Of a stretch of 57,222 nucleotides of DNA, positions 7,740 to 44,537 are shown piece after piece (position 1 is the stretch's first letter; each line of letters opens with the position of its first letter). Below the pieces are notes generated by a model that did no database searches, had not been told where the DNA came from, and saw only the letters and a program-made list of their open reading frames with translations. The stretch is from Pedinophyceae sp. YPF-701 (lineage: Eukaryota > Chlorophyta > Pedinophyceae). Where the stretch lies: contig CAJZHL010000025.1 of NCBI GenBank assembly GCA_916048055.1, positions 1-57,222 on the forward strand, read 5' to 3'. The position numbers were made by a program, and so were the translations under genes.

Positions 7740-10700
7740 ATGTGGCAGCACCGGTGGTGCGCTTGCATCGTCGTCCTCTGTCTGTGGCTCGCGACAGCGA
7801 CGCAGGTGAGGACGTGCAGGCGCGCCGTGGTCGGGCGTCGCAGGAGAACGCTGCGGCTGAGCTGTCGATGCGACGCCGGTGCCGGATTCACGAGCGACCG
7901 CGCTGCGCTCCATCATCGCCCGCACGCGTTCCCGGAAAAACGTCGCCATGCGCTCGGGTGACTGCGCAGGGAGAGGAGGAGTTTTATCACTACTTCACTG
8001 TGCCGGAAGAGGCCCGGAACCTGGTCCTCGTGCAGGGCCGAGCAACGCCATGGATCCCGTTCACGATCAACTCCCCGGCTACGCTGCGCATGGTGCCTCA
8101 GTGGTTCCGCGCCGTCCCCGCTGACCCCCACCAGCCCGCCGCGAGCGACGCGCCCACCTTCGAGCCCTTCGACGGCGCGGGCCTGAGCATCGAGCCAGAC
8201 CCGCTGACCTTCGACCAGGACGGCCCGCGGACGCGCGAGTTCCGCGTCACCTCGAACGTGACGGGGGACTTTCGTCTCGAGCTGGGGGTGTTTGCCACGA
8301 CGCGCATCGTGTACATGCGCCCGCAGCCGTTCGACCTGCGGGTGGAGCCCGTCGGGGCGGTGCTCGTCACGCCAGCGGCCATGGACTCGGTCGTCGCGGG
8401 CCGGCGCTCGCGGCAGTACAAGGCGGCGTCGCCGTTCCGGGAGCGTGGCGCGGCGCCGCTGGTGGAGGTGGCAGTGGTGGGCGAGCAGCGGCGGGCCGCG
8501 GTGCTCGGGGACGGGTCGCGGCGGAGGATGCCGGGGCGGAAGGCGGCCGCCGAGGGGCGGGGCGCGTGGGGCACGTGGGCGGGCACGGGGCAGGGGGACG
8601 CTGGCGTGGAGGGGGGCGGCTGGGAGGCCGTGCCGGCGGGCTGCGTGCGCGCGGAGCCGCCGGTGCTCAAGCTGTGGAGCGCTCCGGACGAGGGGGCGGA
8701 GGACGACCCCGGCTCAGCGGGCGTGCTCCCGTTTCACCTCGTGTCTGACACAGCGGCGGAATGTGCGGGGGTGTTCGAGGCCGCGACGGAGGACGACGTG
8801 GTGCACGCGGGCGTGGACGGGCCGGCGCCGGTCGCGGTCAACCTGCGGGTGAGATTCGAGGCCAGGTGCAGCGAACAGGCGCACGTGGTGACGGCGGCTG
8901 ACTGCCACGACAAGGCGCTTCCGAAGATTCCTGCACCCCGCGACGTGGTGCTGAGGCGCCCGGTGGTCGTGACACCCCCCGACGTCATCGTGCTCGCGCC
9001 CGGAGAGACAAGGAACGTGTCTGTAGAGGTGCGACACTGTTGACATACAGCCGCCACGGTGCGTAATTGCGGTGCGCCCCCCCTGCGAGCGTGACTCGAC
9101 GCCCTGCACCGTTGCGGTCTGCAGGTCTCGCACGCGGACGACGTGTCGCTGGCGCTGCTGGGCGAGGACCTGGTGTTCAGCGCCGCGCAGCTCGCCCTCA
9201 CGGCGACGTCACGCCCGCCGCTGCAGCTCAACGTGACCGTAGAGATGAGCGACGCGAGCGACTGCACCCTCGGCGCGCCTTGCTTCCGGGACATTCACTG
9301 GGGTTTGAACAAGGAGGGGACTGCCAAGCGACTGCTGTCAGGTCAGACGATCGTTTCTGTCCCTGCCCCCGCGCTCCACTAGCTCTTCGCAGTCAGTCTA
9401 GACCCGCTTGCGTCGACTCGGATTCTGGCCGCAGGAGGAGGGGTCGTTTTCAACAGCTCAACGACGCGGGTGATCGTCGTGCCGAGACTCCGGCTGCGGC
9501 TGCCGCGGTCGGCGCCGATGGCGTTTCTGAACCACACCGTCGACATGGCCATATCCATACAGCCGGCGGCAGCGGAGGGCTTCGCGAAGATCGCGGCGAC
9601 GGTCGACATGGGCGCAGCGCTGGACGCTGCGGTGCGGGAGGCGCGCAAGGCCGGCTGGCGGGCTTGTTCGGGCGAGCAGAACGCGACGATCACGGACGAG
9701 GCGGGGCAGGAATGCAATGCAGACGAGCATCCAGATCCAAACGAAGGGCGGTCCGGGGAGGCGACCAGCAACACAGCAGGGGCCTTCCTCGAGGCGCTGC
9801 TGCGGCGCGTCAGCGCCGGCGGCCCCGCGGACGGCCTGAGGCTCACAGATGCAGGCTCCGACGGCCCGCCGCTGCAGCCCAGCCCCGGCGCGTACCTCAC
9901 GGTGCGCCTCACCACCGTCAACGGGACCTCTGCGACGATATCTCCGTCGTGCTTCAACCTCAGCGCAAGCGCGGGATTCAACCGCACCGTGCGCATCACG
10001 CCGCACGAGCCCGGCGCACACGACCTCGTTCTGGACGTGTCGGGTCCGCTGGCGTCGCTGGTGCAGCACAACACCACCGCGAACACCACCTCGCTCGTCG
10101 CGCACTGGCCGGTGTTCAGCGACGACAGCGGCGCGTTCGCGCGCTTTGGCCTCGGCGGCGTAGATGAGCAGATGCGCGAAATCGTCCGCCGAGCGTTCGC
10201 CACGCGCGTCCTCCCTCCCGCGCTCGTCAGGTCCCTGGGCATCGCGCCCGTGCGGGGCATCCTCCTGCACGGGCGTCCGGGCGTCGGCAAGTCCACGATC
10301 GCCCGCGCGATCGGCCGCATGCTGTCGGCGGAGACGGTGCGCGTGGTGTCGGGGCCGGAGATCCTGTCGAAGTTCCTGGGCGAGAGCGAAGAGAAGACGC
10401 GCGAGGTGTTCGACCAGGCCGCGGAGGCTGCGGACCGCTCCCCCGGGCGCGTGCAGCTCATCATCTTCGACGAGCTGGACGCGCTGGTCAAGCCGCGCAC
10501 GGGCGGCGGCACCGCGCCCGACCGGGTGTACGACGGCATCACCAACACGTTCCTCACGCGGATGGACGCGATGGGGGAGTTCCCCAACGTGCTCGTCATC
10601 GGGACCACGAACCGTCGCGACCTCATCGACAAGGCGCTGCTGCGGCCCGGCCGGTTCGACATCCAGGTCCAGGTGCCGATGCCGGACGAAGATGGGCGCC

Positions 10701-12588
10701 GGCAGATCCTCGCGGTGCACACGCGCGACATGGCCGACGCCGGGCTGGTCGCGGAGGACATCGACCTCGCCGTGCTGGCGTCGCTGACCGAGGGGTACAC
10801 CGGTGCGGAGCTCGAGGGCCTGGTGAAGAGCGCGGCGTCACACGCGGTGCAGCGGACGATGGACGGGGAGGGGCGCGGCGGGAGCGAGCGCGAGTACGAG
10901 AGCGAGCTCGCGTCGTCGCTGCGGCTGACGTGGGCGGACGTGGAGCGCGCGCTGACGGAGGTGGTGCCGGCACAGGTGGATGCCGAGGCGAAGCTGTCGC
11001 AGATGGCGGGGCCGGGCCTCGTGCGGTTCGCCCCGCGCGTCGACCGCGCCGTGGACACGCTGAGACTTGTGGTGGCGCACGCGCGGGGGCTGCCGGCGGA
11101 GTTCCACACGTGGGAGCTGGATGCGACGCGGGCGCAGCGGGTGCGCAGGAAGCTGCGGCAGGCGGCGCCGACGTCCGCCGCGGTGGACGATGCGCCCCGA
11201 CGAACCACGGAGAGGGAGAACGTGGCCGAGAACGGCGATGCGGCGGACGGGGAGGGCTTCCGCGCAGGGCTGCTGCGGCCGCGCTCCACGTTTGCGGTCG
11301 GGCAGGACGCCGGCTTCGGGGGCGCACGCTCGGGAGGCGGCGCACACTCGAGCGCTGCGAGCAGGCAGCGCGCGACGCGCGTTCTGATCCACGGCGCGAG
11401 CGGGTCCGGCAAGTCGGCGCTGGCGGCGATGGTTGCGCTGGAGGCCATGCCCTTCTACTCGTTCGTCGACGTCGTGACGGACGGGCCGGAGGACATCTGG
11501 GACGCCGGGGCGCGCGGCGGGCAGCAGAAGATCGGGCGGATCGCGGAGGCGCTGTCGCGCGCGCACCGGGAGACGCACTCGCTGGTGGTGCTGGACGACC
11601 TGGACACCGCCGTGGACCACGTTTCGGCGCGGGACGAGGTCGCGGCGGGCCACCTGCTGTCGTCGCTGCGATCGCACCTGCGCCAGGAGACCGCGCGTGG
11701 CCACGGCATGCTCGTGCTGGCCACGTGCTCCACGCGCCTCTTCCAGGCCTTCCCGCAGCTGGGCGACCTCTTCGACGCCGTGCTCGAGGTAAGCCGCCAC
11801 CCCGCCGGGCCGATCGTACAGCACGCGGGGGCACCGCACGACGAGGTATCGAGATGCGACGCCCGTCTTCGACCCGTCAGACGAGCAACGTTCCGTCGCT
11901 CGGCATGGCACCCCGCCGTCGTCGTCGGGCACCCCGCCGCCCTGTTCCACGACGCCCGCGACGTCCTCCTCCCACCCGCGCCCCCCCGCCGTCCCGTCGC
12001 AGGCGCCGCTCGTGCAGACGAAGCAGGAGCTGCAGGCGCTGCTGGAGGAGGCAGCGAAGCTCCCGGGACGGGGCGCGGCGTGGCTGACCGCGCAGATGCA
12101 GGAGCAGGGTTCGCTCGCGGCGCGTGCTGCGCGGGGCGCGGCGGGTCGCGCGCGTGCGGGTCCGGGGCGGGTTGGGTTTGCGCTGCGGGAGTGTGTGCGG
12201 GCGCTGGAGACGGAGCTGCCGATGGCGGTGGGGAGGGTCCTGCGAGTGCTGGACATAGCCGGCACGCACTCACAGGCGAGGACTCGGCCGCGAGCGCTCG
12301 CCGGCGTCCCGTCGCGCACGGTGATTCCCAGGTCTGACATGAGCGAAGCGACAGTTGTGTGTGCAGGGTGCAGCGCCTGGGCTCGAGGCGCTGGGGCTCA
12401 CGGCGGAGGACGTTGGGCTGAGCGGGAACGGGACAGAGGGGCGCGCGGGGGGCGGGGTGGTGTCGTCGCGGCCGCGGGGAGTGCACGGGTGGGTGCGCAG
12501 GGCGATACTGCTGGTGCGAGGGGCGTCGGACGACGCGCTGGACGAGGAGGAGGACCGCGGGCAGCAGACTCGTGTCCGGTGGTGGTGA
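7740..12588 (+). CDS. Signal-peptide/beta-sandwich ectodomain fused to NSF-type double AAA ATPase (D1-D2)
   Basis: Exons: 7740-7805, 7970-9028, 9125-9341, 9435-11788, 12003-12275, 12367-12588, giving 1396 aa with all phases consistent. Exon 1 is exactly a 22-residue hydrophobic signal peptide (start MWQHRW, core IVVLCLWLATA). Residues ~23-690 are beta-sandwich-like with several N-x-S/T sequons. At ~700 the sequence changes abruptly to NSF D1 (FARFGLGGVDEQ, then RRAFATRVLPP). Walker A GRPGVGKST is near 726, Walker B IIFDELD near 790, sensor GTTNRRD and RPGRFD follow. D2 has GASGSGKSA near 1100 and VVLDDLD near 1165, and the tail resembles the NSF C terminus. The NSF N domain (SNAP binding) is absent. 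The last intron (12276-12366) appears to be GC-AG (CAG|GCGAGG). NSF family membership is strong; the fusion and its compartment are unexplained. Ectodomain and AAA parts share one uninterrupted exon (9435-11788), which argues against two genes. Confidence 0.75.
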
Positions 12589-12873: not shown

Positions 12874-13979
12874 ATGCCGGGCCGGGGCGGTCCTAAGCGG
12901 CACCAGCGCCGGGAGGGGAGGGCGGGCCTCTCCACTGGGGACGTCAAGCGCCTTGCGCGGCGCGGGGGCGTGAAGCGGATCGCGGGGCAGGTCTACGAGA
13001 CCACCAACGAGACCCTGAGGGCCTGGCTGTCGAGCGTGATCAAGGATACCGTCACTCTCGCCGAGCACGCCAGGCAAGAGAGCACCTCTGTCCTGCCTGG
13101 AATGGCGGGTCGCCCAGCGCGACGTGCGCGGGCCACGCGACGTGCGCCTGCTGCCCGTCCGGACTCGTACTTGGGTGAATATTCAAGAATGAACCCCCGC
13201 GGCGCTCTTTCGTGCCCCCCACGGCGCGTGCGGGCGGTCAGCCGGGCAGCGGCGGCAACTGCGGGCGGGCCTCCTGTGCGTGACCACCGGCCAACGAGAG
13301 GTTGCCTGACGCATGTGCAGCTCTTCTCTCTCCGCGATCGCGCAGGTCTATGACCGTGAGACCGCTGCACGTCTTCCTGGCGCTCAAGAGACGCGGCGTC
13401 AGCCTCTATGGCGCTCCCGGCCTCTCGGGGTCCGAGTTCTGCTCGGCGACGTCCCTGCGCGCGAAGAAACGGATCAAGAAGCCGCTGAACGCCCAGATCC
13501 GCGCCGTCGGCGGCCCGTCCGCGCCCCCCAACGCGGCGACGGACCAGCAGGAGGGTGCACCCGTGACCGCCCCGCGCACGCGGCGCACGCAGGCTGTCCC
13601 GCGAGGCACGCCGATCACGGAGGCTCGCGACGACGACACGCGGCTCCTCGAGGAGCACGAGGTTCAGGAGATCCAGGTCCGCGCGCGATTGCACCCCCAC
13701 GCAACCACCTCCGCTGTGCAGGGCGAGCTGCTGACGCCGCAACGTGCCGGCGGTTCGAACCAAGAGCACGTCCTGCGCCACGACCACGCGCAGGAGGCGA
13801 TCGCGGAAATCCTCTCGGGATCGCCGGGCCTGTGCCTCCCGACAGAATCCCTGGTGGAGCGCGTCGTCGGGCAGTGCAAGTCGCGGTTCAGGGCGGCGCA
13901 CGTCCGCGCCGTCCTGCACGCGCTGGAGCGCATGGAATCCGTCCACATCGAGGGCGGGGACGTTTACGCGCTGGTGTAG
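12874..13979 (+). CDS. Divergent histone H4 variant with long C-terminal extension
   Basis: Exons 12874-13073 and 13346-13979 give 277 aa. Residues ~20-86 align end to end with histone H4: RLARRGGVKRI is identical, followed by GQVYETTNETLRAWL, IKDTVTLAEHAR, and after the intron LALKRRGVSLYG. The N tail is shortened: it starts MPGRGG-PKRHQR, keeps the K16-R17-H18 equivalents, but lacks the segment carrying K5, K8 and K12; K20 is Arg. The single intron must use a GC donor (CCAG|GCAAGA) to keep the H4 alignment gapless (AG|G = Arg). After the H4 fold come about 190 extra residues: a basic stretch (LRAKKRIKK), a low-complexity linker, and a compact C-terminal ~65 residues (EAIAEILSGSPGL..., ending GGDVYALV) that looks like a winged helix. 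Likely a specialised chromatin protein, not bulk H4. H4 identity is strong; winged helix is tentative. Confidence 0.85.
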
Positions 13980-14860: not shown

Positions 14861-17800
14861 TCAGTCGAAAATGCTGTCCTGCCTGTCCTCCTCCGTCAGC
14901 GCGCGCGGGGGCACGGCGGGCGCGGCGTGCGGCGGCGACGACTCCCGGGACCACATCTGCGCCCCCTGCGCGCCCGACATGCGGTGCGGCCGCAGCTCCA
15001 CCTCCCCGGGCATGCCAAGGTCGACCACCTGCGGCGAGTCCTCCGGGGATCTCCGCTCCGCGCGCGACCCCGCCACGGGCGAGGCGTAATGCTCGAGGGG
15101 CACCACGGGCCGCCGGATGTCCTCCTGCGAAAACCTCGACGAGATGGGCCGCGACACGCGCTGCACGCGCCCGGGCACCGCGCCCTGCGACTCGCGCTGG
15201 TCGCCCCGGCCCTGCGACCCGCGGTGCCCGCGCCGCACGTCCGGGCTGCTGGGCGACGGATCCCCGTACGTGAGCGGCATCGTGGTGCGCATCTGCGTCT
15301 CGCGCCAGTCTTCCGGGAGCGTCGGCCGCACGATCTGCCCGCTCTGGTGCGTCGCCAGCGGGTACGAGGGCCGCAGCTGCGTCGAGGCGGTGCGGCCCTC
15401 CGTGCCGAGGTCCTTCGTGGGGCGCGACGCGCCCTCCGTCTCCTTGCCCGTCCTGTCCGACGCGTTGCGCTGCATCTTGCGCGCCTCGATGGCCGCCCGC
15501 TTCTGCGCGCGCTCCTCCCTGCGCGCCTGCTTCGCCTTCTCCTCGTCCCTCTTCAGCTTTCGCAGGTACACGAAGGCGGCGATCACGACCCCGATCGACG
15601 CGGCGCCCAGGACCGAGCTCCCCACGACCACCGCCAGCGTCACCGTGGAGTCGTTCAGGCCCTCGCCGCTGGCGCCGTCGCCGGAGAACGCCGTGCCCGT
15701 CGACGCGGCGCCCTGCGATACGACGTTCAGCGAGGTGGAGTCCACGGCGGCGCAGTTCGAGCCCCGGTGCCCGAGGTAGCACTCGCACTTGCCGGCGATG
15801 CACTGCCCGTTGCCGCTGCAGTCGTCGGGGCAGGACAGCGAGGGGCAGATGGTCGACGAGTCCGGGCAGGGCCCGATGGTGCCCTCGAAGATCGACACGT
15901 CCGCGAGGTCCACCGTCTCGCCCGCGGGGCACGCGAAGGGAGCCGACCCCCCCACGGACACCATGAGCTGGCCGCCGCTGCAGCTGGTGCGGAAGCAGCC
16001 CGCGCGCTCGGTGTACCGCGACCCGCGCCTGCGGATGCCTCCAGGCTGCGAGCGCACGGGAGGAAGAGGAGGAGTGGGAGGGGAGTAGGCGCGCAGGTGG
16101 ATGTGCGGGCACGCAGCGGGTCGAGTCGAGCGGGCGGGGCGGGAGCCTGCGCGCACCTGGAGGGGCAGACAGCGCGAGTACGCGCCGTAGTGCATGCCGA
16201 GGTCCCCGAGCGACCCCTGGCGCAGTTCGTTCTGGCACTCCCCCTGGTCGCTGGCCACCACCTGCGGGCACCCGTCCGCGAAGAGCGTGGTGCGGCAGTC
16301 GCCGTACGTCAGGTGGTCGTACGAGCACGTCATCTCCTCCGACGGCGAGCACACGAGCCCCAGGTCCCGGAGCGCCTGGTCGTCGACCCCGCAGCGCGCC
16401 TCCACCACGCCGCATCCGGCGCCAAGGCCGTACTGCAGCATCGCACCGGACTCCACGTCCACGTCGTACCACCCGGAGTCGTCGAGCAGCGCGAGCGTCA
16501 GCCGCGACAGCAGCGCCCTCCGCCCCTCCGTCGCCCCCAGCATCAGCTCGTTGTCGTGCAGGCGCGCCTCCCAGTGCGACGAGAGCGTCGCGCTCGACCC
16601 GTCGTTCTCCAGCGCCGCCCCGGGCAGCTCCGGGCAGCTGAACTGGTCCCGCGCGGCCTGCGCCGCCCCGGGCGTCACCACGTAGTTGCGCCCGCCGACG
16701 TTCTGCACCACCTGCGAGCGCGGAACCCGGGCCCCGTCGCCGTCCACGAAGCGGCTCAGCGACGCCGAGCTGAACCCGAGCGCGTGCAGGGCCTCGTGGA
16801 GGACCAGGTCGACGGTCTGCCCGATCTCCGCGTCGGGCAAGGCGCGGTCGCGCGGGCACAGGTTGACCACGCCGGCGAGCGGGCGCCCCGTGCTGTCGAA
16901 GGAGCACGGCGCGCCGAACGCGGAGAACCCGCCGTCGCAGAGCACTTGCGACCCGATGCTCGTCTCCGCGGTCACGTACAGGACCACGTCGGCGTCCGGC
17001 ACGCCCGCGCCCGGCGGCGAGTCCGTGCAGGCGCCCGTGGAGTCGCACACGCGCGCGGACGAGAAGTACGAGGGCTCGTGCTGGGCGAAGAAGCAGTTCC
17101 CGATCGGCTTCAGCTCCCTGCAGGACGCGGGGCGCGGGGCAGGCTCTCTTGAGCGCTCCGTGGCGCCCGTCGTCGTGATCGTCGGCCCAGATCGCGGCGC
17201 CCACCGCCTCCGGAGCAGGCTGCCGCGGGGGCCGCGATCCGCGCAGGGCGTCGGCGTACATCGGAGCGCCAGCGCGCGGCACCCCGGGCGCCCGCGCCGG
17301 GTCGGCAACGCGCGGACGGAGGCTGATTGTGTCATGGGCTAGGCAGTTGTGGCACGAGGTTCTCCGTCGCGCAATTGCGGGAGATGTTGGTCGGCAGAGC
17401 AGCGCGATAGACGCTCGGCGGTGTGGGCGCGCGCCCACCTGCACTGGCCGGTGCTCTGGTCCACCGTCTCGCACGTGCGCGGCAGGAAGAGCGTGCCCTG
17501 GGTGGGGCGGCGAGGGGCGAGGGTGCGCGACAGCTTCGCGACGACGCGGGGCAGGATGGTGCCCGTGAGCGTCTCCCGGAACGACGGCGCGAGGCCCCCG
17601 AGCTGGAAGTCCAGCGCCACGCGCAGCCCGCCGCCCCCCGTGCCGGCGTTGCCGGCCAGCCCCGATGCGTCTCCAGCGCCCCTGCGGCGCAGCGCGGGGA
17701 CAAGTTGCTTCCGTCTCGGCGGATTCGCAGAGCGCGGGTCGCGGGCACCGCCCGCGGAGGACGAGCGGGGCGTCCCCGCGTGCGCGCGCCGCGCCCGCGC

Positions 17801-41936: not shown

Positions 41937-42327
41937 CTGCTGTGGCGCGAGTGCGGGGACGCCGCGTTCACGGCGCGATGCCGGGCTGTGACACGCGCGT
42001 GCTCGATAGGTCACACCCTGCCCGGTTGCGCACTCGAACAACCTCAGGTCGGTTCAGCGGTCAATGCGACAAAAATATCCCCTCTCCCCGCCTTGGACGT
42101 GCGTCGCTGGGGAAGTAGCGGAAGGAGGGGAGGGAATATCGAGCTACTGGGTGTTGTGTGTCGTCGTCTTGATAGCGTCTTGTGGATGTGGAGGAGAGCG
42201 GAGAGCGACGGGCTCGTCGTCAAGGAACGCCCCCGTCGCAGGGGTCCTCTGCGGTTCTCATTGCGTACAAGGGTTTTACTGCAGCTCAGCGTTGAGCGCA
42301 AAAACGTGCGTTCGCGGGCTTGGGATT
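41937..42327. other. Convergent intergenic spacer before the 81-bp repeat array
   Basis: About 390 bp between the MAP3K stop and the tandem array. Slightly AT-richer; no gene or RNA seen. Confidence 0.5.
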
Positions 42328-42651
42328 TGTCGCTGGCCTAAGATGACCGCAACGGCAGCTCTGTAAAGAGCTTGATTGCTAGGGCAGCAGCAGGTCGATC
42401 TGCTCTTGTGTCGCTGGCCTCAAACGACCGCAACGGCAGCACTTTGAAGAGCGTGATTGCTAGGGCAGCAGCAGGTCGATCTGCTCTTGTGTCGCTGGCC
42501 TCAAACGACCGCAACGGCAGCACTTTGAAGAGCGTGATTGCTAGGGCAGCAGCAGGTCGATCTGCTCTTGTGTCGCTGGCCTACAATGACCGCAACGGCA
42601 GCACTGTAAGGAGCTTGATTGCTAGGGCAGCAGCAGGTCGATCTGCTCTTG
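42328..42651. repeat. Tandem array: four copies of an 81-bp unit overlapping the nucleotidyltransferase-like 3' end
   Basis: Units at 42328-42408, 42409-42489, 42490-42570 and 42571-42651 each start TGTCGCTGGCCT and end with CGATCTGCTCTT. Copies 2 and 3 are nearly identical; 1 and 4 carry a few substitutions. On the minus strand, copy 4 contains the last codons (EQIDLLLP) and stop of the neighbouring gene, so the three other copies duplicate that coding end in its 3' untranslated region. The period is a multiple of three, which leaves a plus-strand open frame with a 27-residue repeat; I regard that frame as incidental. Confidence 0.93.
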
Positions 42652-44537
42652 GATCTCGTCCTGGTCCATGAGCGCGGCGCACGCCTCGAAGGCGGCCTGC
42701 CCGTCGCGGCATGTTTCCTGCGCGCAGCGGATGCAAGCAACCACGCCTCGTTTCCACGCTGGTCATCGCATCTATGGCCGGTGCGCCGCGACGCCGCGCG
42801 CCGGCAGCCCCCGACCGCCACGCGCGCGCACAGGGAGAGCCTCGTCGGCGGGGAGCGCGCACCGCGATGTGCTGTATGGTCGCCATCGAGAGGTTCCTCG
42901 CGTTGTTTTGCACGGACTCGATCGGGTCGGGCACCACCGCGACGTTGTTCCCCATCGCCAGCATGCGCCGGCCGAGCTCGGTGTCCGGCACGGCGACCCA
43001 GGCGCCGTGCCAGGTGCACGGCACGCGGTTGCCGAGCGTTCCGTCGGCCCACGCCGCGGTGAGCCGCGCCACGCGCTCCACGAAGAGCGCCAGCAGCTGC
43101 CCGACGCCCGCCTCGTTCCCGGAGCGCCACGTGGACACGAGCTCGGTCGCACGCACGAGCATCCTGGCCACTCTGTCGTCGACGTCTGCGCGGGAGCGCG
43201 GGGGCGCGGCACCGCGCGGTTGGAGCGCCCGTGTCTGGGCAGTGGGAGCGGCCGGCCGCGCGGGGCGGCGCGGGACGACGCACCTTCGGCGCTGACCACG
43301 CCGTCGAGCGGCCGGGGGCCGTCGGGGTCCTGGTAGGCGGGGAAGAGCTCGCGGATGGGCGGCAGGACGGGCTTCCGGAGCGTTTGCAGGTGGAAGAGCA
43401 CCAGCAGGTCGAGAGCGTAGGGGGTTAGCAGCTTCCTGGTGCCGTCGACGACCTGCGCGCCCTCGCGCTGCGCCCACCTGGCCGCGGCGATCATCAGCGG
43501 CCGCACGCGGTCGTCCATCTGCGGGGGCGCGGTGGGAGCGGGCGGCGAGGGCTGCTGATTGGCGGCTGCAGGACGGCGGTCCCGGGGCCGCGTGCGCCGC
43601 GAACGGGGCCGAGGGGGGGCCGGGGGCAGTGCACGGCGCCGGTACCTTGATCATCTCGCGGATGACGGCGGCCTTGAAGCCGCTGAGGCTCCCGCACGAA
43701 ATTTCAACCAGAGTCCCATGGAGCGCGTGCCGGGCGCGCAGCAGCGGCTTGCGCGCGTTCCGCAGCTGCTCCATGCACTGCAGCTCCGCCTCGTTGGGTC
43801 TGCGCAGATCCCGCGCGACGAAGCGAAGAAGACGCAGCTGTATTACGTGAGGGGTTCGGGCTGTATGCAGGGCACTGGAGTTCGCGTCCTGCAGCGCCCT
43901 CGAGATCCTCCGCCTGTCTGCGGCCCCCCTGCAGCGCAGACGACGGGAACAGTGGGGTGGACGCCCGGGCGAGAGCCTGCGCGCCGCTGGGGCGCGGTGT
44001 TCGGGCGTGAGGCCTTGCAGCACAGTCTAGGCTGCGGCGTGCGTGCGCGGGGCGGGTCGCTCACGGAGTCATGGCGCTGATGAGGTCGATTGCGGCCGGC
44101 GTCACCACGCCGCAGAGCGTCACGTTGCAGACCGAGTCCGTCTGCGCCGTCCCCTGCGCGTAGGGCCCCTCCAAACACACCGAAACCGTGTTCTCCTGGA
44201 ACACGCGCACCCTCTCGCCGTTGCGGGCGCGCCAGGGCGTGTCGTCGTCCGTGAGCGACGAGCCGTGCACCGTGACGGTCAGCTCCGCGGCCAGCGCCTG
44301 CAGCGCGGCGATGCTCCGTGAAACGTCGGTGAGGAGCGGCCCACCCGCCTCCCACGCCGCGACCTTGCTCTCCACGTGCCTCTCGAGCACGCGGATCCAC
44401 GGCAAACGGCTGTTGTATCCATTGTCGTCGTCGCAGGCCCACAGACTCTCCACGTTGTCGCCCGGGTGCCCCTCGAGGGGCGGGCTGGAGGACTGGGCCC
44501 GCGCGTCACTTCCGCCTGGCGATTCCTGCGCGGCCAT
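42622..44537 (-). CDS. Catalytically degenerate Cid1/Trf4-type nucleotidyltransferase paralogue (probable pseudoenzyme)
   Basis: Exons (transcript order) 44537-44065, 43874-43646, 43518-43284, 43185-42863, 42696-42622, giving 444 aa. All four introns match, in phase and position, introns of the downstream nucleotidyltransferase at 46074-48277; exon 3 has exactly the same length (235 bp) in both. The PAP-associated domain is well kept (DDRVRPLMIAAARWA, LTPYALDLLVLFHLQ, KPVLPPIRELFP, GPRPLD). The catalytic loop is not: where the paralogue has HGSFVQDMSQEDSDVDV, this gene has EGPYAQGTAQTDSVCNV (residues ~123-139). Ser of the GS signature is Pro, and both aspartates of the D-x-D are Val and Asn. 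The zinc-finger array is also missing. The reading frame and splice sites are intact, so it is likely expressed as a non-catalytic partner. The exon 2 acceptor (before base 43874) is the least certain. Confidence 0.85.

Follow-up and report, generated by a model that had tools for sequence, protein, structure and literature searches.

Variants of histone H4 are rare, according to the abstract of a report on one of them, the ascomycete H4E, which is nuclear with GFP at its C terminus and interacts with H3, so that a C-terminal extension is in itself no bar to an H4 (PMC10878826). In yeast, the C-terminal winged helix of MCM3 provides the helicase's first contact with ORC-Cdc6 during loading, and a single change of the last residue of MCM3 abolishes recruitment (PMC7979726). 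How chromatin specifies replication origins is an open question in most eukaryotes. Among the open-licence papers listed, judged by title or by the start of the abstract, none describes an H4 or other histone variant with a winged helix, MCM3, an extension or a domain fusion. The gene described here, from a minute marine green alga, belongs to a protein family that very probably joins an H4 variant to an MCM3-related winged helix; new here are seven environmental proteins of this architecture, in two clades, whose winged helix points to that of MCM3.

The gene lies in a window of 57,222 nucleotides, the whole stretch of DNA that was analysed (contig CAJZHL010000025.1, assembly GCA_916048055.1), from Pedinophyceae sp. 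YPF-701 (Chlorophyta, class Pedinophyceae), a strain described in 2025 as Akinorimonas japonica (PMC12574857). At the limits given in the first-pass annotation there are indeed a start codon (ATG, 12874) and the end of a stop codon (13979), but the frame from 12874 is not open through to 13979, having stops in its second half, and is replaced by a two-intron model. The whole coding region, for an H4 variant with a C-terminal winged helix, occupies 12874..13979 on the forward strand and gives 238 residues when spliced. Exon 1 (12874..13073), which comprises residues 1-66 and the first two bases of codon 67, encodes the short tail and the greater part of the H4 histone fold, and intron 1 (13074..13345, 272 nt, GC-AG) falls within the H4 core, its removal restoring the H4 alignment. 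Exon 2 (13346..13676) carries the end of the core (residue 91, about base 13418), a linker (residues 92-160) and the beginning of the first helix of the winged helix, to residue 177. After intron 2 (13677..13793, 117 nt, GT-AG, in phase and stop-free), exon 3 (13794..13979) supplies residues 178-238, that is, most of the MCM3-like winged helix, the terminal YALV and the stop codon.

The gene is real. With both introns spliced, its translation equals letter for letter the NCBI protein P0001 (238 aa, "unnamed protein product"), which was also the best match in a protein search with the window protein (E 3e-141). The intron borders were placed by a script that tried positions near both gaps; 25 placements proved equivalent, and in one of them both introns have standard or GC-AG borders. 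Splicing of intron 2 is favoured because relatives align across the junction of exons 2 and 3, where EIQ and EAIAEIL on its two sides align with LVQEALGRF. A first working model of 277 residues, in which intron 2 was retained, was dropped; intron 2 is absent from P0001. The protein had been described in the first pass as continuing within the same exon into an extension of ~190 residues, a longer reading that arises because intron 2 keeps the phase, has a length divisible by three and contains no stop, and one that holds only with that intron retained; in the NCBI model its splicing removes 39 residues and keeps the extension, which then runs for 147 residues after residue 91. Third-position GC is 0.90 over the gene (0.88 in the H4 part, 0.92 in residues 92-165 and 0.905 in residues 166-238) and 0.82 in intron 2 read in frame.

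Upstream of the gene, on the forward strand (9470-12337), is a frame in which two stretches of AAA ATPase (PF00004, E 6e-40) and an AAA lid (PF17862) were recognised; we take it to be NSF-like, and it continues to 12337 in low-information sequence. The downstream neighbour, on the reverse strand (14861-17335), encodes a leishmanolysin-type peptidase (PF01457, E 3e-43), after which come an EGF-like stretch and what is likely a membrane segment. Elsewhere in the window, an 81-base unit occurs four times in tandem (94% matches) at 42328-42651, and the 2 kb that hold the copies (42001-44000) have a GC content of 0.681, below most of the window.

The identification of the N-terminal part as H4, made from the sequence in the first pass, stands beyond doubt. 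The core carries RLARRGGVKRI, and a PDB sequence search with intron 1 removed returned 92 matches at E<=0.001, the best 60 of which are all named H4 (best match E 2.8e-21, over residues 3-95); the Pfam Histone model is matched weakly (E 0.12-0.14). The alignment, previously described as gapless, is so once the 272-nt intron 1 has been taken out, apart from the absence of two residues close to the N terminus. The protein begins MPGRGGPKRHQRR, without a tail of the K5/K8/K12 type, and in the PDB alignment the equivalent of K16 is retained and that of K20 is Arg, the tail loss and the K20 replacement both having been read correctly before. Because the acetylatable tail is lost and the core ends in LYGAPG, not the canonical LYGFGG, the predicted protein is a divergent H4 variant and not a canonical H4.

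Across one representative of each of the three clades described below (P0001, P0034 and P0119), 18 positions are unlike canonical H4, including A33 (D/E), Y88 (L), R95 (V/I) and F100 (A/H/Y). Some of the 18 changes are also present in other divergent H4s of the set; proteins outside the family share changes at Y88 (L in P0006) and at R95 (I in P0022). The window protein further has L at position 72. Y72 and Y88 of H4 are taken here to face H2B, and F100 to serve the chaperone Asf1. Binding to H2B may be weakened by the changes at 72 and 88, and incorporation of the window protein into nucleosomes is plausible, not assured.

The YPF-701 assembly (27.9 Mb, 32 contigs) was searched for further histone genes. 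A 92-residue H4 query recovered the gene's own two exons, four canonical H4 genes (on contigs C8, C19, with two, and C1) and two other H4 variants, together with two chance-level rows (E 0.43 and 0.60). The search for a canonical H4 elsewhere in the genome, proposed in the first pass, was thus answered by four identical canonical H4 proteins, each of them encoded close to an H3 gene, the four H3 genes being identical too. The H4 part of the window protein is 48-52% identical to the products of these six other H4 genes. The window's contig has none of the 21 matches that a search with PF00125 listed, and no H3 gene beside the window gene is among them. The other two H4 variants terminate at their GFGG or GFGV and are without a C-terminal extension: one (C5:99422-99700, L006) has an odd tail, MTAKKYTYGRGKGGPKRRPLPLNKTEALRG, and the other (C21:238576-238842, L007) has a T73D-like and other changes and ends in GFGV. 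A further match to the Histone model apart from the canonical H3 copies (C8:273306-273647, L062) carries LFEDTNLCAIHAKRVTIM and is perhaps a divergent H3.

Relatives were collected by several searches. The first protein search gave 37 proteins at E<=0.01, including two environmental proteins, P0034 and P0035, with the same order as the window protein (unusual tail, H4 core, linker, C-terminal domain). A profile of these two with P0001 and P0031 drew 1016 proteins at E<=1e-8; six proteins were newly read among the best 120 of these 1016, and four of them, P0039, P0041 (a fragment), P0119 and P0123, have the same architecture. The tail of P0119 alone as query returned three proteins, one of them new (P0151). 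The architecture is thus found in at least eight proteins, the window protein and seven environmental ones, and further examples may be among the profile matches. They fall into three clades: the window protein P0001; P0034, P0035, P0039 and P0041; and P0119, P0123 and P0151. Identity between clades is 45-55% in the H4 core, 12-35% with gaps in the linker and 17-27% in the winged helix. Judged from these predicted proteins, the architecture is beyond chance, since it recurs in other sequences, and its recurrence in three divergent clades argues for use.

A tree was computed from 31 H4 cores, with seven winged-helix rows included and P0041 left out; P0020 and P0030 (odd or partial) and P0124 and P0134 (duplicates) had been dropped beforehand. 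The seven winged-helix rows, which have long branches, fall on one side of a branch supported at 88/58, and four fungal rows, H4E by resemblance, form a separate starred group without the window protein; elsewhere the tree is weakly resolved. A clade that includes P0031 was neither shown nor rejected (p 0.17), and a grouping of P0001 with the genome's own H4s was not rejected (p 0.174). P0031 and P0030 have C-terminal extensions, neither of which matches PF23191 (0 of 2), and they were not counted as members. A giant-virus or prokaryote origin was considered and set aside: no relative was found in the viral contigs or prokaryote genomes scanned, a result that concerns those collections only. 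Two other kinds of H4 protein were noted in the course of these searches. Five environmental proteins, perhaps viral (P0006, P0007, P0017, P0022 and P0131), are listed with both an H4 core and a Ulp1-type protease domain (PF02902), and two from the green alga Pyramimonas (P0029 and P0032) are H4 variants that have K79M/T80H-like changes and a long extension at the N terminus, with none at the C terminus.

The linker of the window protein (residues 92-160, ~70 residues) contains 11 K/R and 4 D/E and a basic patch, RAKKRIKK. The domain beyond it was suspected in the first pass to be a winged helix, and a sub-threshold match to the Pfam family PF23191 (WH_MCM3_C) together with the winged-helix topology of the model bears this out, the domain lying mostly on exon 3. 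PF23191 is matched by all eight members of the architecture (E 0.0014-0.016 for P0034, P0035, P0039, P0041, P0119 and P0123; E 0.031 for the tail of P0151; E 0.18, 12.5 bits, for the whole of P0001). When domains were searched alone, six of six matched it (best E 0.00013), other families being matched by at most two of six, and for the window domain alone it was the sole Pfam family matched (E 0.018, 15.7 bits). The scores shown all lie below the curated cut-off of 27 bits, those of the non-window members being 14.9-19.3 bits where shown. Shuffled versions of the window domain did not match PF23191 (0 of 7), the linker-histone family PF00538 gave no match at E<=10 in the window protein, its relatives or the isolated domains, and no MCM AAA+ ATPase core was detected by Pfam in the 238 residues of the window protein.

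Profile methods point the same way for the environmental members. A six-row winged-helix profile, in which the window domain is one row, was run against 177,635 PDB sequences at E<=10 and gave eight matches, seven of them MCM3 C-termini and the eighth a thioredoxin reductase (E 0.32); two of the MCM3 C-termini were matched over the whole domain (E 0.0041 and 0.011), and the other five over the last 29 columns only (E 0.25-0.29). The winged helix of a single relative, used against the same kind of sequences, had yielded three chance-level rows (ORC1 twice and ClpX, E 0.45-0.94), so that MCM3 came up with the six-row profile only. In profile comparisons with two animal MCM3 tails, the P0119 clade reached 93% probability over 57 columns and the P0034 clade 78% over 27 columns; the two clades matched each other at 92% over 30 columns, and the linker-histone control, the P0020 domain, scored 0.4% and 0.06% against them. 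All seven environmental members end in YLI and MCM3 tails in FLI; the window protein ends in YALV. Where the environmental members are concerned, the MCM3 assignment is thus a good one. The window domain taken alone gave, in profile comparison, 0.7% with MCM3, 3% with the P0034 clade and 0.16% with the linker-histone control. Against thin local profiles, scores at least as high as its own were reached by 26 shuffles out of 2000 and 10 ORF decoys out of 1813 with a joint profile, by 123 of 2000 and 47 of 1813 with a family-only profile, and by 57 of 2000 and 9 of 1813 with an MCM3-only profile. The weak assignment of the window domain to MCM3 comes from its PF23191 match and the shared architecture.

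An AlphaFold2 model of the window protein, built with eight rows, shows three H4 helices, then a linker that is for the most part disordered, and a domain of the order helix-strand-helix-helix-strand-strand, with pLDDT block means of 71-86 over residues 171-238. In a model of P0119 the winged helix (residues 201-265) has a pLDDT of 86-92 and the H4 core is poorly modelled; the two models are not independent, relatives having served as the alignment in both. A Foldseek search with the first model returned only histone or nucleosome entries in its best 50 rows. With the P0119 model there was no Foldseek match at E<=0.001, the best being residues 792-863 of chain 4 of 8b9d (E 0.016), which we take to be the human MCM4 winged helix. 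The fourth match was to residues 736-808 of chain B of 9lxd, an entry listed under MCM3 in the profile search; this segment presumably fits the end of human MCM3. Because winged helices of cullin, Stn1 and Cdt1 have Z values of 9.0-9.3 against the P0119 model, similar to the 9.7 and 9.3 of MCM winged helices, the fold does not decide between MCM3 and other winged helices.

The genome's own MCM genes were also sought. Seven MCM loci (C4, C8, C10, with two, C12, C27 and C28) emerged alike with three Pfam MCM models and with an MCM3 segment as queries, the segment giving in addition one row on C14 (E 0.61). The loci correspond to MCM2, 4, 5, 6, 7, 8 and 9; MCM8, MCM7, MCM6 and MCM5 were named by their best PDB matches, and the other three we presume from their motifs to be MCM2, MCM4 and MCM9. 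MCM3 was not found in the YPF-701 assembly by these four queries, which probably reflects an assembly gap rather than true absence, and the search may also have missed the gene. Searches of the genome with PF23191 and with MCM3 tails were uninformative, the former matching nothing, controls included.

The simplest functional reading of the sequence would be a histone-fold protein that carries a docking module on chromatin, the step from homology to function being one that we infer. A divergent H4 variant, whose flexible linker includes a basic patch and leads to an MCM3-like winged helix at the C terminus, would pair with H3 and ride on chromatin, and the winged helix would be displayed as a docking site for ORC-Cdc6 in the way that the MCM3 domain serves at the first recruitment of the helicase. 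The variant would then mark or favour licensing sites, which is the outcome preferred here, or compete with MCM3 and limit licensing. Docking of ORC-Cdc6 by the winged helix is advanced tentatively, and the joint reading, in which the protein would be both an H4 variant with an MCM3-related winged helix and a docking site for ORC-Cdc6, calls for the same reserve. A positive role in marking origins is doubtful. It would likewise be a speculative step to hold that the MCM3 winged helix, the first part of the helicase to touch ORC-Cdc6, is carried by a conserved class of H4 variants in this alga and in environmental sequences, so that the nucleosome would itself display the docking signal of the helicase, as an origin mark within the histone polypeptide. 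If true, an H4 variant joined to the MCM3-type contact with ORC-Cdc6 would be a direct link between nucleosome composition and origin licensing. The centromere, silencing or DNA-repair mark suggested in the first pass found no support; the only specific lead is the MCM3-like winged helix, which directs attention to replication licensing instead.

Several other explanations have to be weighed against the docking proposal. The winged helix might bind DNA or protein without an MCM3-like role, for example by compacting or silencing chromatin as a linker histone might. The winged-helix fold is common, the MCM, cullin, Stn1 and Cdt1 domains being alike in comparison with the P0119 model, and the sequence of the window domain matches MCM3 weakly; this explanation is held to be only slightly less likely than docking. 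Against it, seven of the eight PDB profile matches are to MCM3, no linker-histone family is matched in Pfam, and the linker-histone domain of P0020 reaches at most 0.4% in profile comparison. An antagonist, chromatin-borne or free, whose MCM3-like domain would occupy ORC-Cdc6 and so limit or time licensing, draws on the same sequence evidence as docking, and an MCM3 winged helix that lacks an ATPase ring would be expected to compete, to judge from helicase loading in yeast (PMC7979726). Against a free competitor, which would not need the histone part, the 45-55% identity of the H4 core between clades suggests that this part is used, and we consider antagonism improbable.

Similarly improbable is a non-nucleosomal histone-fold protein, the possibility raised in the first pass, that would pair with H3 or with a different histone-fold protein in a complex of replication, repair or the kinetochore. 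The changes at Y88, R95 and F100 in the three clade representatives and L72 in the window protein, on surfaces that face H2B or Asf1, would suit such a protein; RRGGVKRI and most of the core are however retained, and the likewise divergent H4E, fused to GFP at its C terminus, is nuclear and partners H3 (PMC10878826). That the gene is decaying, or its model faulty, is very improbable: intron 1 has a GC donor and the window protein is the most divergent family member in the winged helix, yet all three parts have a high third-position GC, splicing leaves an intact frame and seven environmental proteins share the architecture. Docking of ORC-Cdc6 by a chromatin-borne winged helix remains the preferred reading.

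Among known systems, the ascomycete H4E resembles the window protein in being an H4 variant with its own intron structure, few tail lysines and a C-terminal extension; it differs in that its C terminus is 7 residues longer in Aspergillus nidulans, and no winged helix is reported in the excerpted text (PMC10878826). The trypanosomatid H4.V is also a divergent H4 variant, encoded by a single-copy gene away from the arrays, and the start of its abstract mentions no extension of this kind (PMC13052989). P0020 of Perkinsus olseni (247 aa) likewise unites a linker-histone winged helix (PF00538) and an H4 core in one predicted protein, but there, unlike in the window protein, the winged helix is N-terminal to a near-canonical H4, and P0020 may be a merged gene model. 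The canonical H4 of the same genome, encoded by four identical genes, shares the histone-fold core and RLARRGGVKRI (52% identity over residues 3-91); in contrast to it, the window protein is without the K5/K8/K12 tail, has a core split by an intron and LYGAPG for LYGFGG, is extended by 147 residues at its C terminus, and has no adjoining H3 gene among the listed matches. The C-terminal winged helix of MCM3 (PF23191) differs from that of the family in being joined to an MCM ATPase rather than to a histone fold, and the family's scores are below the cut-off, with YALV in the window copy. In both MCM3 and the family, however, the domain sits at the very C terminus, PF23191 is the sole Pfam family matched by all six domains and by the window's alone, and MCM3 and all seven environmental members end in (F/Y)LI.
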